Shown piece by piece: positions 5,123-24,296 of a stretch of DNA of 32,524 bases (positions are counted from its first letter, which is position 1; every line of letters starts with the position of its first letter). The position numbers and the translations under genes are program-made. Source of the DNA: Candidatus Magasanikiibacteriota bacterium (GTDB lineage Bacteria; Patescibacteriota; Patescibacteriia; Magasanikbacterales; 2-02-FULL-50-9b); NCBI GenBank assembly GCA_023246755.1, contig JAHFHU010000005.1, positions 35,081-67,604 of the forward strand. Direction: 5' to 3'. The notes beneath the pieces were generated by a model. That model was not told the DNA's origin and made no database searches. It was given only the letters and a program-made list of their open reading frames with translations.

Positions 5123-6643
5123 TTACCGCGCATATTCAATCACCCGACTCTCTCGAATCACCGTCACCTTGACTTCGCCCGGTACATGCAATTCGGTCTC
5201 GATTTTTTTCGCGATGTCTTTCGCGATGTTGTATGCACCGTAGTCATCAACGTCTTGCGGGCGAACAAACACGCGCATCTCACGACCTGCTTGAATCGCA
5301 TACGCTTTTTCAACACCTTCAAACGACGTCGCGACTTTCTCCAATTCCTCTAATCGGCGCACATATTGCTCATACGAATCACGTCGCGCACCCGGGCGCG
5401 CGCCTGAAATCGCGTCCGCCGCTTTGATGATGCAGCCGAGCAAAGTTTTTGGTTTGTCTTCGTGATGCGCGATCGAGCAATACGCGATTTCTTCCGGCAA
5501 TCCAAATTTTTTCATCAATTGATAGCCGAGTTCTGGGTGTGAGCCTTGTGTGTCGTGATCGATTGCTTTGCCAACATCGTGGAGCAAACCTGCTTTGCGC
5601 GCTTGAATCGGGTCAACGCCGAGTTCGTCCGCGAGCATCGACGAGATGTGTGCGACTTCGATCGCGTGCAACATCTGATTTTGTCCGTACGATGTTCGAT
5701 ATTTCAAGCGTCCAACAATCGAAACTAATTTTGGATCGATTCCTGCGATGCCAAGTTGATAGAGCGCGTCTTCACCGGCCTTGCGCACATCAATCGCTAA
5801 ATCCTTTTTTGCTTCCTCAATCACTTCTTCGATGCGCGCCGGATGGATGCGACCGTCAGACATTAATTTTTCGAGCGTCAATTTTGCAACTTGGCGGCGG
5901 ATCGGCGAAAAACCAGAAATCATAATTGATTCCGGCGTTTCGTCGATGATCAATTCACAGCCCGTCAATTTTTCGATTGTCTGAATGTTGCGGCCTGCTT
6001 TGCCGATGATGCGACCCTTCATTTCGTCGCTCGGCAATTGCACCGTCGTGGTCATCGTTTCGGCTGCGTGTGATCCGGCGTACCGATAGACGACGGTGGT
6101 CAGAATTTTTTTAACCTCTTTTTCGTAATAGTCGGATGATTCACGTTCGAGTTTCATGATGCGCGCGCTGAGCGCCTCGGCTTCGCTTTCCTGAACGAGC
6201 TTCAACATGCTCTCGACTGCCTCATCTTTGGTGAGTCCGGCGATCGATTGTAATTTGGCGAGCTGCGTTTCTTTGAGCGCCTCGGCTTCGGCTTGCACAA
6301 CTTTTACGCGATCCGCTTGTGCAACCAACTTTGCGTGGCGATCTTGAATTTCGGCGAGCTTTTGGTCAAACGTCGTTTCGCGTTTTTCAAGTCGTTGCTG
6401 CTGCTCTTTGAGTTCGCGGCGCAATTCGTCCTGCTCTTTTTTGGATTCATCAATTAATGCGATTGATTTTTCGCGTGCTTTGAGCAGAAGATCCTGTTCT
6501 TTATTTTTTGCGTCCGTGAGAATTTTTTCTGCGTGTGCTTCTGCGGAATTAACTTGCGATTTTGCGACGGACTTGCGAGCGAAATAGCCAATAGCGACAG
6601 ATATAACCGCGACAAAAGCGGTGATGATCATGCTGAATAACAT
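5123..6643 (-). CDS. rny: Ribonuclease Y (membrane-anchored endoribonuclease)
   Basis: This 506-residue protein has the full RNase Y layout: an N-terminal membrane helix (MLFSMIITAFVAVISVAIGY), a long charged coiled coil to about residue 170, a KH domain near 205-270 (GRIIGKAGRNIQTIEKLTG) and an HD domain (HAIEVAHISS, then LLHDVGKAIDHD near 350) with the metal-binding His-Asp pair, then a conserved C-terminus. RNase Y starts bulk mRNA decay at the membrane. It is monocistronic, with a promoter at 6794-6822, a leader of about 145 nt and no Shine-Dalgarno. Instead, a hairpin directly abuts the start codon, so post-transcriptional control is plausible. Confidence 0.97.
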   Translation of the reverse strand: MLFSMIITAFVAVISVAIGYFARKSVAKSQVNSAEAHAEKILTDAKNKEQDLLLKAREKSIALIDESKKEQDELRRELKEQQQRLEKRETTFDQKLAEIQDRHAKLVAQADRVKVVQAEAEALKETQLAKLQSIAGLTKDEAVESMLKLVQESEAEALSARIMKLERESSDYYEKEVKKILTTVVYRYAGSHAAETMTTTVQLPSDEMKGRIIGKAGRNIQTIEKLTGCELIIDETPESIMISGFSPIRRQVAKLTLEKLMSDGRIHPARIEEVIEEAKKDLAIDVRKAGEDALYQLGIAGIDPKLVSIVGRLKYRTSYGQNQMLHAIEVAHISSMLADELGVDPIQARKAGLLHDVGKAIDHDTQGSHPELGYQLMKKFGLPEEIAYCSIAHHEDKPKTLLGCIIKAADAISGARPGARRDSYEQYVRRLEELEKVATSFEGVEKAYAIQAGREMRVFVRPQDVDDYGAYNIAKDIAKKIETELHVPGEVKVTVIRESRVIEYAR

Positions 6644-7383: not shown

Positions 7384-9690
7384 ATGTTTTTAAAACGTGT
7401 AGAAATTCAGGGGTTTAAATCTTTTGCAACAAAAGTTGCGTTCGATTTCCAGCCGCCAACGGCTGCGGCGCGATCAATCACGGCGGTGGTGGGGCCAAAC
7501 GGATCGGGTAAATCCAATTTGGCAGATGCGATTCGATGGGTGCTCGGCGAGCAATCGATGAAAACGTTGCGCGGGAAAAAATCCGAGGATGTTATTTTTG
7601 CGGGTTCGGATAAAAAAGCGCGGCTCGGGTATGCGGAAGTTTCGGTGCATCTGGTTAATGAGGGCGTTGTCGCGGGAGCAGCGGGCGACGAATATGATTG
7701 GATGAATGTGCCGGAGATTGTGATTGCGCGGCGTCTCTATCGTGATGGCGCTGGCGAATATTATATTAATGGAAGCAAGGCGCGATTGAGCGACATCCAA
7801 TTGTTGCTCGCGAAGGCGCATTTTGGACAGAAGACCTACACCGTGATCGGTCAGGGTTTGATTGATCAAATTTTGCTCGTGTCTCCACGTGAGCGTAAGG
7901 AGTTTTTTGATGAGGCCGCGGGCGTCAAGGAATTTCAACTGAAGCGACATCAGGCGTTGCTCAAATTACACGCAACGCGCGAAAATATTTCGCAGGCCGA
8001 AAATTTATTGAAAGAAATTGAGCCGCGGTTGCGGAGTTTGCAGCGCGCGGTCAAACGATTGGAAGAGCGCGAAGCGGTCGAAGCGCGGTTGCGATCGTTA
8101 CAAAAACAATATTATGGAACGTTATGGCATGATTTGAGTACGCGGGTTGGCGAGTTGACGACGGCGTGCGGGGGCGATGAGACAGCGCTCGGCGAAATTC
8201 GGGCGCGCTATGATGCGATGCTCGGGTCACTCCATAAACTCGAAGTCGAAGAGACGCAAAGTGAGGTGATCATCGGTTTGCAACGATCGTATGAGGATGC
8301 GTCGAAAAAACGGGGGGCGCTTCGCGAGGAAGAGTTGCGTTTGAAAACCGCGCTGGAGGTTTCGCGCGTGCGACGCGAGGTGCGCGCGGAGTGGGCGCCG
8401 TTGCCGCTGTCGAAAATTATCGATGAGCTGGAAGAGATGAAAACGGCGCAGCGTGAACTTGGTGCGCGGTTGCGCAGTGCAACGACGATTGAGGCGGTCG
8501 TTAAAATTTTGGATGCGTTTGATGCGGTTGTTGATCGAACTGAACATTTGGTCGCGCGCTTGCAGCGTCCGGCGCCCGAGGTCGCGCCGCAAGAAACCAA
8601 AGCAGATCCGAAAATTCAGGCGCAACTTGATGAATTGCAGGAGTCGGTTTTGTTGCTTGATGTGCAGCTCAAAGAATTGAGCGCGGCGATGCACGCCGAA
8701 TCGCATCGTGAGCAGGAAAAAAAATCGGAATTTTTTGCGGTGCAGCGACGATTGCAAGATGAGCAGCGTGCGATGCATGAGATTGAATCGCGGTTGTCGG
8801 GGCGGAAAATTGAGCGCGCGAAATTTGAGACGCGGCTTGAAAGTTTGCGCGAGGAGATGCAGATGGAAGTTCCGCACATGGTTGCGGAAGTTTTGGCTGC
8901 GCGACCAGCGGAAAATTTGGCGTCGGCGGATCAGGCGCAGCGCGAACTGTTTTCTTTGAAGCATCAGTTGGAATTAATCGGCGGCATCGATCCGGAGGTG
9001 ATGAAGGAATATGACGAGACGAACACACGCTACACATTTTTGTCCGAGCAGCTGGGTGATTTGTCGGGTGCTTTGGCGAACACAGAGACGACAATCAAAG
9101 AGTTTGACGAGATTTTGAAAACGCGGCGCGAAGAAGCGCTGACGACATTAAATGTTTTGTTTCAGGAATTTTTTGCGACGCTGTTTAAGGGTGGGTCGGC
9201 AAAATTGATTCCGGTGTATGTTGATCCGCGCGATGAGTTGACGGCGCGCGCGGGCGATGACGACGGCGAGACCGAAGAAGATGTTGCAGAGGCGGCCGAG
9301 GAGCGCGCCGAGGGCGTGTCGCGCGAGCCGGTTTTGGTTGGGATTGATATTCAGGCGCAGCCGCCCGGTAAGCGCATCAAAGATATTTCGGTTTTGTCGG
9401 GCGGCGAGCGCGCGATGACGTCGGTGGCACTTTTGTGTGCGATCATGGCGAGCAATCCGTCGCCGTTTGTTGTTTTGGATGAGGTTGATGCGGCGCTGGA
9501 CGAAGCAAACTCAATTCGTTATGCGGATATTTTGGAGCGGTTGGCCGAAAAAACCCAGTTCATCGTCATCACCCACAACCGCGCGACCATGGGCAAGGGC
9601 GACATTTTGTACGGCGTGACGATGGGCGACGATGGCGTGTCGCAATTATTGAGCGTGAAATTTGCGGAGGCGGAACGGTGGGCGAAATAA
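7384..9690 (+). CDS. smc: SMC-type chromosome-segregation ATPase, short, hinge not recognisable
   Basis: The N-terminal head is a textbook SMC: FLKRVEIQGFKSFA, Walker A GPNGSGKS at 37-44, then VLGEQSMKTLRGKKSEDVIFAG and QGLIDQILLVSPRERKEFFDEAAG. The C-terminal head has VLSGGERAMTSVALLCAIM near 670, Walker B FVVLDEVDAALDEAN near 695 and the H-loop ITHNRATM. At 768 residues it is far below the usual 1100-1200. Each arm is only about 150 residues, and the centre (about 336-410: EWAPLPLSKIIDELEEMK..., ending in a Pro-rich linker) is helical with no Gly-rich hinge. An acidic insertion (GDDDGETEEDVAEAAEERAEG, about 630-650) precedes the signature motif. It is monocistronic, and no ScpA or ScpB is nearby. 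SMC or a hinge-less SMC-like relative are the options; the ATPase heads are secure. Confidence 0.93.
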   Translation: MFLKRVEIQGFKSFATKVAFDFQPPTAAARSITAVVGPNGSGKSNLADAIRWVLGEQSMKTLRGKKSEDVIFAGSDKKARLGYAEVSVHLVNEGVVAGAAGDEYDWMNVPEIVIARRLYRDGAGEYYINGSKARLSDIQLLLAKAHFGQKTYTVIGQGLIDQILLVSPRERKEFFDEAAGVKEFQLKRHQALLKLHATRENISQAENLLKEIEPRLRSLQRAVKRLEEREAVEARLRSLQKQYYGTLWHDLSTRVGELTTACGGDETALGEIRARYDAMLGSLHKLEVEETQSEVIIGLQRSYEDASKKRGALREEELRLKTALEVSRVRREVRAEWAPLPLSKIIDELEEMKTAQRELGARLRSATTIEAVVKILDAFDAVVDRTEHLVARLQRPAPEVAPQETKADPKIQAQLDELQESVLLLDVQLKELSAAMHAESHREQEKKSEFFAVQRRLQDEQRAMHEIESRLSGRKIERAKFETRLESLREEMQMEVPHMVAEVLAARPAENLASADQAQRELFSLKHQLELIGGIDPEVMKEYDETNTRYTFLSEQLGDLSGALANTETTIKEFDEILKTRREEALTTLNVLFQEFFATLFKGGSAKLIPVYVDPRDELTARAGDDDGETEEDVAEAAEERAEGVSREPVLVGIDIQAQPPGKRIKDISVLSGGERAMTSVALLCAIMASNPSPFVVLDEVDAALDEANSIRYADILERLAEKTQFIVITHNRATMGKGDILYGVTMGDDGVSQLLSVKFAEAERWAK

Positions 9691-11966: not shown

Positions 11967-11994
11967 TGGCGGCGGGTGAGTGTCTCGACGCATG

Positions 11995-12060
11995 GTACAA
12001 AATTGTTAAACATTTTGATCTGATTTGTTAAACAATTTTGTACACACCAGCAAGACATAT
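11995..12060. repeat. Intergenic palindromic repeat, copy A
   Basis: A perfect 13-bp inverted repeat GTACAAAATTGTT / AACAATTTTGTAC (11995-12007 and 12031-12043) is followed by CACCAGCAAGACATAT. The 66-nt unit aligns without gaps to 23891-23956, with about three quarters of positions identical. Confidence 0.8.
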
Positions 12061-12149: not shown

Positions 12150-12494
12150 ATGGACGCAGGGATTTCAGTTCAAGGAGTGGCCGACGCGCTTCGTCGCTCG
12201 GAAGCTGATGGCACGATTAGCACGCTGCAGGCAAACATTCTGCGCATGCGAACAGGCATCGTGGTTCAGGACGGCGAGCAGTTGCAGACCAGCTACGGTC
12301 AGCTTCCGCCCGAAGTGGCGGCGGATCTCGCGACTATGGAACAGCGCGCGATCGGCGGCGTAATCGCTGCGGAACGTGTTCGTTCCGGAAGCCGCGGGCT
12401 GCAAATGCTCGCGCGCACGATTGCTGGCGTGCCACACAGCTCGGCGGCCGAGGCGCGCATGCGTTACGGCCACGGCTGCAAAGGCGGCAAGTAG
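12150..12494 (+). CDS. Hypothetical small protein, 114 aa
   Basis: I do not recognise this protein. The ATG at 12150 is preferred over the track start at 12096 because GGGGAAAGGA lies just upstream and the longer N-terminus reads like leader sequence. The product is mostly helical and Ala/Arg/Glu-rich (VADALRRSEADGTISTLQANIL, PEVAADLATMEQRAIGGVIAAERV), without membrane helices. It ends in a Gly/Lys/His/Cys tail (YGHGCKGGK). GC and codon use are higher than in the neighbours. It lies about 90 nt after repeat copy A. I see no terminator after it. No function is proposed. Confidence 0.65.
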   Translation: MDAGISVQGVADALRRSEADGTISTLQANILRMRTGIVVQDGEQLQTSYGQLPPEVAADLATMEQRAIGGVIAAERVRSGSRGLQMLARTIAGVPHSSAAEARMRYGHGCKGGK

Positions 12495-13050: not shown

Positions 13051-14382
13051 GATTCGCGGCGCGACAATTAAAAAAACAAAATATATGACGCCGAACCCTT
13101 GAAATAAGGCCGGCGTCGTTATATTTATGATGAAGAGCGCAAGCGCACCGGCGACGAGTCCGCGTGCGAGGGGTGTGTGTGCCATGCGTGAGAAGTTGTA
13201 GATGATTGCGCCGAGTAGTGCGAAGTACGAGGCAGCACCAAGCACGCCAAGTTCAGCGATCATTTCAAAATAACCCCAATCAAATTGCGTGCGGGTTTGC
13301 GGTGTGTGCGTGATCGGGTCGGTGTATGTTACTGTTTGTCCAAGGCCCGAACCGAAAAGTGGGTGCAGCGCGATGATGCGCTTGATGTCGGGGAGGAGCG
13401 CGATACGAATCGCACCGCTCGGGTCGTTTTCGGGTTTCACGCCTGCGACGCGCACGCCGAGGAGTTTAAGGCCGATCGATTGACCGCGGCTTGCGATAAA
13501 ATGCGTGCTGAAAAAAATAAGTCCGGCCACGCCGAGGGTGAGTGCGGAAACTTTGAACCATTGTTTTGCCGGTGTGCGATAGAACAGCAGAAGCGCGCCA
13601 GCTGCGAGACCTACAAAATAAATGCGCGTGAAATTTAAAATTACGACGATGAGAGAACACACGAGTAGTGCCCAGATTTTTTTGTTTGAAATTTTTTTAG
13701 TGAGCATGCTGAACAAAACCAAAATGATGGGCACGAATAAAATTTGTTCGGCGGTGACGATGCGAAAAAAATGTGCGCCGAGATCCGTGATTTTTCCGGC
13801 CGCGACATCGCGAAACCAGTGGTAGTATGGATCTTGTAAAACTGAAATATTGAGTGAATAAAGCGCGAAGGTGATGAGAGAAAAAAGTGTGGTGCCGAAA
13901 ATAAAAATTTTGATCGCAGCGACATAGAGCGGCTCCGGCGCGTGTTCGAATTCGAGCGCGGGAATTAAAAGCAAAATAAATAAATAAAGGATCGTATCTT
14001 GGATAATAAAATTTGGTGCGTGGTGATTTAGAAATCCATTAACGATTGACCACGCTAAAAATACACCAAAAATTCCGAGTGCAACGCGAATATTTTTTTG
14101 TGGCACTGAAAATTTTTTTCGTGTGCGAATTTTTTTGATGAGCCACAGCGCGCCAAAAATTCCGAGCACCCATGTGCGCAGAAGTAGGCCACGCAGCTCA
14201 AAAAAATGCCCCGCGCCATCGAGAATGAGTTCGAGCACAAGCACCTTCCACGCGAGCGAGAGATTTTTGATGCAGAGGTACGCGAAAAAACCAACGAGCA
14301 GAGCGGCGATGATTTCTTGGAGGACCGCGTGGTTTCTTAGAAGAAAAGAAAGTGTGCGGATCGCGATATAAAATATAAGCAT
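13027..14382 (-). CDS. O-antigen ligase/polymerase-like polytopic membrane protein
   Basis: From the ATG at 14382 this is a 451-residue protein with roughly ten or more hydrophobic helices. A longer soluble loop late in the sequence contains HPLFGSGLGQTVTYTDPITH and TRTQFDWGYFEMIAELG, the arrangement of the Wzy_C/WaaL ligase domain. Such enzymes move undecaprenyl-linked glycans onto acceptors or polymerise them. Function with the LCP enzyme is possible but unproven. The track start at 14412 would lie upstream of transcription, since TTGCAA-17-TACCAT ends 7 nt before 14382, so the mRNA is probably leaderless. Its 3' end overlaps khpA on the other strand. The gene interrupts the rpsP-khpA-trmD neighbourhood. 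Confidence 0.85.
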   Translation of the reverse strand: MLIFYIAIRTLSFLLRNHAVLQEIIAALLVGFFAYLCIKNLSLAWKVLVLELILDGAGHFFELRGLLLRTWVLGIFGALWLIKKIRTRKKFSVPQKNIRVALGIFGVFLAWSIVNGFLNHHAPNFIIQDTILYLFILLLIPALEFEHAPEPLYVAAIKIFIFGTTLFSLITFALYSLNISVLQDPYYHWFRDVAAGKITDLGAHFFRIVTAEQILFVPIILVLFSMLTKKISNKKIWALLVCSLIVVILNFTRIYFVGLAAGALLLFYRTPAKQWFKVSALTLGVAGLIFFSTHFIASRGQSIGLKLLGVRVAGVKPENDPSGAIRIALLPDIKRIIALHPLFGSGLGQTVTYTDPITHTPQTRTQFDWGYFEMIAELGVLGAASYFALLGAIIYNFSRMAHTPLARGLVAGALALFIINITTPALFQGFGVIYFVFLIVAPRILDTEIID

Positions 14383-23800: not shown

Positions 23801-23851
23801 GCCGCTCGGTTCCTCTTCAACGGGGGGATCGGGCGGCGAATTTTATTTTTA
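23801..23851 (+). terminator. Rho-independent terminator of the 23135 gene
   Basis: GCCGCTCGGT pairs over 10 positions (two G-U) with ATCGGGCGGC and is followed by GAATTTTATTTTT. Confidence 0.7.
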
Positions 23852-23890
23852 TATGGCACCACGAGATTTTAGATGTGCTTTGCCTGTGTG

Positions 23891-23956
23891 ATACAAAAAT
23901 GCTAAACAATTGATGCCGAAATGTTAAACATTTCTGTACCCACCACAAAGACAGAT
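23891..23956. repeat. Intergenic palindromic repeat, copy B
   Basis: TACAAAAATGCT and AACATTTCTGTA form an imperfect inverted repeat with the same spacing as copy A (11995-12060), followed by CCCACCACAAAGACAGAT. At position 8 of the arm both strands have changed together relative to copy A (T-A to A-T), so the hairpin is conserved. Confidence 0.75.
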
Positions 23957-23999: not shown

Positions 24000-24029
24000 T
24001 TGACGAAATCAGCAATCCTGTGCTAATAT
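24000..24029 (+). promoter_or_regulatory. Promoter of rpsU
   Basis: TTGACG, an 18-nt spacer and TAATAT preceded by TGC (extended -10 style), 42 nt before the ATG. It probably also drives yqeY and perhaps the two surface-protein genes. Confidence 0.65.
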
Positions 24030-24071: not shown

Positions 24072-24296
24072 ATGATCGAAGTTAAGAAACGAAAAAACGA
24101 GAGTTTTGAGTCATTGATGCGCCGCTTTCGCAAGCAGGTTCAGCAGAGTGGTGTTGTATTGCAGGCAAAAAAAGTGCAGTACCGCAAATCTCACAAAAGC
24201 AAGAACATCGTGCGCGCAAGCACACTCATTCGCTTAAAGCGAAGAGGCACGATGGCGTATCTCGAAAAAATCGGCAAGACCCCGTCAGAAAAATAA
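24072..24296 (+). CDS. rpsU: 30S ribosomal protein S21
   Basis: At 74 residues with MIEVKKRKNESFESLMRRFRKQVQQSG this is S21-like: the N-terminal strand and the FE.L.RRF..Q...SG block match the family, followed by a Lys/Arg-rich helix. S21 helps initiation on the 30S platform near the anti-Shine-Dalgarno. A near-perfect GGGAGGTGA precedes the ATG. It is followed after 35 nt by yqeY, a pairing common in bacteria. The C-terminal 25 residues (ASTLIRLKRRGTMAYLEKIGK) are longer than in E. coli S21. Confidence 0.93.
   Translation: MIEVKKRKNESFESLMRRFRKQVQQSGVVLQAKKVQYRKSHKSKNIVRASTLIRLKRRGTMAYLEKIGKTPSEK

Follow-up and report, generated by a model that had tools for sequence, protein, structure and literature searches.

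The closest described systems to the repeat analysed here are the paired operators of dimeric bacterial proteins and the short repeats of the repetitive extragenic palindromic (REP) or MITE type. REPs carry a 5' GTAG tetranucleotide. Like paired operators, the repeat has identical palindromic half-sites 22 bp apart, conserved around a free spacer, and in several copies it lies near promoters; unlike them, it has no coherent regulon and has longer common flanks, and its protein partner is hypothetical. Like the REP and MITE-type repeats, it is short, palindromic, intergenic and dispersed, with copies present or absent at orthologous gaps, but the copies are very few, neither a REP-associated Y1 transposase nor a target duplication accompanies them, and the unit is without the GTAG tetranucleotide. 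Literature searches found no paper with both "repetitive extragenic palindromic" and "Patescibacteria", and none of the listed publications that print the half-site sequence TGTTAAACA is, judged by its title, on a paired-operator site. The family described below is confined to one genus and is real but small, and of a familiar general kind.

Two copies lie in the window, the whole 32,524-nucleotide stretch of contig C23 that was analysed, both on the plus strand. The core of copy A (11996-12042) consists of the arm TACAAAATTGTTAAACA, a 13-nt spacer and the arm TGTTAAACAATTTTGTA, and includes two TGTTAAACA half-sites, each an odd palindrome, at 12004-12012 and 12026-12034, which have the same orientation and are 22 bp apart. 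It is followed by the tail CACACCAGCAAGACATAT (12043-12060), which is common to copy B and the copy on contig C19, and partly to copy C20a on contig C20. Copy B has the arms TACAAAAATGCTAAACA and TGTTAAACATTTCTGTA around its 13-nt spacer (23892-23938), a left flank TGTGTGA (23885-23891) that is exact also in copies C20a and C20b and in the copy of the sister genome G003, and the tail CCCACCACAAAGACAGAT (23939-23956). The preliminary description had aligned the two copies over 66 nt without gaps at about three quarters identity, and both were found in place with 49 of 66 positions identical; the ungapped match pairs 11993-12060 with 23889-23956, at 75% over 68 nt. This is the top 66-nt ungapped pair of the window, the next real pair reaching 43, while the best pair in six dinucleotide-preserving shuffles of the window did not exceed 40. 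The hairpin arms, the TAAACA/TGTTAAACA motif and the GTAC.CACCA..AAGACA tail that had been proposed are likewise all present, except that the hairpin carries a fixed A.A mismatch, because the two TGTTAAACA motifs, each an odd palindrome, are oriented alike. The paired change reported at one arm position was also recovered, at columns 12 and 45 of a trimmed alignment of eight copies (A3; MAFFT with long flanks had misplaced the G003 copy): the pair is A-T in seven copies and T-A in copy A, and represents a single event.

Copies A and B were described as lying between a terminator and the next gene, and this order was borne out. A stem-loop with a T run ending at about 11965, read by eye and with an orthologous counterpart in G003, precedes copy A, and the scan placed a terminator-like stem on the plus strand at 23801-23837, 5' of copy B. 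Promoter-like sequence follows copies A, B and C19 on their 3' side; for copy B, it reads TTGACG-18-TAATAT (24000-24029, plus strand), ahead of the S21-like gene at 24072-24296. These promoter and terminator calls are consensus matches or readings of the sequence, and the scan itself reported neither for copy A. The gene that follows copy A is an orphan of 114 aa (12150-12494) between rpsP and khpA, which matches no Pfam family; a diverged relative occupies the same place in G003, and none is found in G002.

The genome (G000; 920,547 bases in 32 contigs, 98.8% complete) was searched by DNA, by pattern and by covariance model. Each search returned the identical five full copies, all intergenic, although the covariance model was built from the same five copies that it recovers, and its E-values are rough owing to a short calibration. 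Besides the two in the window, there is one copy on contig C19 (8183-8264, plus strand), and two on contig C20, denoted C20a (61054-61135) and C20b (14010-14091), both on the minus strand. The proposal of a genome-wide family thus holds to the extent of five copies here and a few partly diverged ones in sister species, but the family is small. Its refutation, by a lack of further copies and of conservation in relatives, fails, so the family stands. C19, too, has a terminator on one side and the next gene on the other, but neither the type of gene nor the distance to it is constant, and C20b, like its G002 counterpart, is probably flanked by two convergent terminators. The neighbouring genes (the orphan gene, the S21-like gene, a Mur ligase gene, a hypothetical glycosyl hydrolase gene and an unknown gene) have no function in common, and the genes that adjoin the copies do not make up a visible single regulon. 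Stand-alone left half-sites outside coding sequence were not found in any of the six genomes, and the extra half-site matches in contig C32 and in G001, G002 and G003 were set aside as lying in coding sequence or at its edge. In G003, a 21-nt sequence identical to the left flank and arm of C20a, AAAATGTGTGATACAAAAATG (contig C53, 27175-27191; L060 / L099), falls within a small coding sequence, at its 3' end, and lacks a second half; it may be a chance match or the source of the arm.

Taken over the copies, the unit is a palindromic DNA of 47 to 69 bases, TACAAAAATGTTAAACA-N13-TGTTAAACATTTTTGTA plus weaker flanks, with the full consensus TGTGTGA-TACAAAAATGTTAAACA-N13-TGTTAAACATTTTTGTA-CMCACCA..AAGACA; the common flanks stretch it to about 69 bp in some copies. 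Each half contains the odd palindrome TGTT-A-AACA, with a central A, directly repeated 22 bp apart, and the arms themselves are inverted. The five copies have a mean pairwise identity of 95% per arm, of 58% over the 13-nt spacer and of 44% over its inner 7 nt; outside the core, the near flanks reach 56-67% and the DNA further out about 26%. One of 100,000 column permutations gave as strong a difference between the arms and the spacer. Nine of the ten half-sites of this genome are exactly TGTTAAACA. The spacing between half-sites is 22 bp in the five copies and in G003, 21 bp in G004 and 23 bp in G002, and in the G003 copy both half-sites have the same first-base change, from TGTTAAACA to AGTTAAACA. 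Any two copies agree at 49-57 of 69 positions (71-83%) and none are identical, so that they are not fresh duplicates.

Comparison with five sister genomes (G001-G005) showed that most copies do not keep their places. These genomes are drafts, 87-98% complete, and absence from a whole genome is therefore weaker evidence than absence from a fully read gap. Four of the five copies (A, B, C19 and C20a) are missing from orthologous gaps of the sister genomes. At the copy A locus, the promoter of the related orphan gene in G003 comes immediately behind the rpsP terminator, and rpsP and khpA are adjacent in G002. Copy B is absent before the S21-like gene in G002-G005, while the G001 contig ends too near to the gap to be informative. 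In G002 and G005, no element separates tRNA-Lys from the Mur ligase gene, as the C19 copy does here; in the remaining sister genomes, this locus is rearranged or not comparable. At the C20a locus, the HTH gene directly adjoins the glycosyl hydrolase gene in G003 and G004, and the gap in G005 is without the element. Conversely, G003 has one full copy adjoining tRNA-Pro, with a TGTGTGATA flank, and in G004 the one full copy separates tRNA-Thr from a gene that weakly matches PhdYeFM_antitox, and abuts the ribosome-binding region of that gene; the gaps of the present genome orthologous to these two sites are without the element. A diverged copy in G002 (E 0.054), downstream of rplT and tRNA-Asp, is in the orthologous place of C20b. 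The differing presence and absence at orthologous gaps indicate that copies were gained or lost within the genus.

GC-rich imperfect palindromes of about 100-150 bp also adjoin tRNA genes in several genomes of the family. Parts of the tRNA 3' half recur in them, repeated or inverted, as in GGGATTCGAA...GGAATCCCACC. They were seen in L038 (around 6035-6180), in L040 on the minus strand downstream of tRNA-Asp (9246-9322), downstream of tRNA genes in L083 and L072, and in L086. These palindromes look like a separate, tRNA-associated repeat family. Short hairpins from the tRNA-Asp 5' end (GGACTGGTAGTTA..TAACTACC.GTCC) are repeated upstream of the tRNA-Asp gene, between rplT and tRNA-Asp, in L085, L084, L086 and contig C20 of this genome.

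Of the 86 genomes of the order, pattern scans, which would miss copies as diverged as that in G002, picked out 3 with GTTAAACAN{13,14}GTTAAACA, each of them within the genus; the 81 genomes of the order that lie outside this genus did not show the paired core. In a phylum sample of 380 genomes, the stricter pattern TGTTAAACAN{12,14}TGTTAAACA matched only this one. An exact scan of genome and viral contigs returned one gap in Ruminococcus and one in a viral contig, both without the outer arms, and plasmid and phage blastn gave no match over more than about half of the unit. A spread beyond the genus was therefore rejected, the scans of order, phylum sample and genome and viral contigs having yielded only the two arm-less gaps. 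The viral contig (IMGVR_UViG_2558860120) is like the unit in having intergenic TGTTAAACA half-sites at 22- and 33-bp spacing, and unlike it in being AT-rich (29% GC), with four half-sites and without the outer arms in common; in the gap itself (L097, 6043-6153), the four half-sites are spaced 47, 22 and 33 bp. We regard this cluster as a parallel and do not claim homology.

The anatomy of the unit is best read as a double-stranded DNA recognition site for a putative dimeric DNA-binding protein, a reading that in our judgment stands evenly poised between right and wrong. The two like half-sites, their helical spacing and their greater conservation than the spacer are what is expected of a paired operator. 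The putative dimer would bind each TGTT-A-AACA palindrome, and since 22 bp is about two helical turns, two dimers would lie on one face of the helix, where they may bind cooperatively; the outer TACAAAA/TTTTGTA arms would add contacts. The unit of 47-69 bp would have been copied several times within the genus into intergenic gaps, often behind a terminator or close to a tRNA gene, after which the arms would have been kept and the spacer would have drifted; an effect on neighbouring promoters may follow. The identical change in both half-sites of the G003 copy fits directly repeated binding sites rather than a hairpin. The reading is also favoured by the lack of lone left half-sites outside coding sequence, by the promoter-like sequences 3' of A, B and C19 and by the place of the G004 copy at a ribosome-binding region. 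Against it stand the lack of a common function among the neighbouring genes and the probable convergent terminators around C20b and its G002 counterpart. In G003, moreover, the orthologue of the copy A gene is served by a promoter of its own immediately behind the rpsP terminator, with no element, so the site is not needed there. The common flanks point to copying of the unit, as a bare operator would not need them, and the up-to-69-bp unit in common, together with positions that differ between sister species, suggests that it was probably copied as a block. Among the options initially offered (protein site, RNA or mobile element), protein-bound DNA thus fits best, a mobile element is possible and RNA is unsupported.

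The main rival to the paired protein-binding site is a small, non-autonomous MITE-like element, whose arms would be terminal inverted repeats served by a transposase encoded elsewhere, and whose copies would be insertions. We consider it unlikely, though to be taken seriously: the 17-bp arms, with one fixed mismatch, form terminal inverted repeats as in MITEs, four of the five copies are missing from the orthologous gaps, the G003 and G004 copies are at places empty in this genome, and the 69-bp unit, common at 71-83%, can be read as TG...CA. However, there is no consistent target-site duplication, the one flanking 7-mer being at C20a only, and the five copies are few, with no two identical. 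The arms have been kept while the spacer drifted, which is unexpected for decaying insertions, and they occupy nearly the whole unit. With regard to a parent transposon with the same ends, the six genomes gave no lone ends outside coding sequence. The transposase family Y1_Tnp (PF01797), the only one searched, was found in none of these genomes (G000-G005), with 5 of 14 controls positive; with only five copies in 920 kb, this also led us to reject REPs mobilised by REP-associated tyrosine transposases.

That the unit is the core site of a tyrosine-type recombinase, its arms TGTTAAACAWTT / AAWTGTTAAACA flanking a variable crossover region of 7 bp, appears very improbable. The inner 7 bp are indeed the most variable (44% identity) and lie between conserved arms, but the copies are dispersed, without gene-cassette arrays or common cargo, and the inner arm edge is not cleanly inverted, since 7 of 8 copies show one and the same base at columns 22 and 35 of A3. 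Least probable of the alternatives weighed is a structured RNA or a hairpin for RNA processing. A stable hairpin fold was predicted in all five copies, four of them with z-scores of -2.0 to -4.1, but only one pair changes on both sides among the eight sequences, and 58 of 500 shuffles reach the covariation score; covariation not above the control does not support a conserved RNA. The core of copy A begins about 30 bp after the T run of the rpsP terminator and ends before the next promoter, and is thus probably not transcribed. The window copies match no Rfam 15 family at the gathering threshold, the weak matches being animal microRNA models and one sRNA. The double change to AGTTAAACA in G003 breaks two hairpin pairs and keeps both half-sites alike. 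Together, the weak covariation, this double change and the probable lack of transcription favour a double-stranded DNA site.

Other known sites were rejected. Integron attC does not apply, since the outer ends are TACAAAA/TTTTGTA and not RYYYAAC/GTTRRRY, both inner sites are GTTAAAC, repeated directly, and the copies are scattered without cassette arrays. No copy has the CACGTG centre of ParB parS (palindrome TGTTNCACGTGNAACA), and the XerCD dif site, about 28 bp long with a 6-bp centre, occurs once per chromosome, compared to five copies with a 13-nt spacer between the arms here. GC skew is positive on the plus strand around all copies, with the C20 copies on the minus and the C23 and C19 copies on the plus strand; copies on both strands under the same skew may speak against a one-orientation replication-fork barrier (Ter).

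A broader proposal builds on the paired protein-binding site: that the unit carries a complete, putative paired site and is itself mobile, a genus-restricted element of 47-69 bp that would spread ready-made operators into the terminator-promoter gaps of very small genomes and so rewire neighbouring promoters. We think this quite improbable as a whole. If the unit does spread, streamlined, sub-megabase genomes would gain intergenic protein sites by block copying and not by point mutation, and their presence or absence could be seen at orthologous gaps. If it is only an operator family, it would still provide a specific bait sequence for finding the DNA-binding protein.
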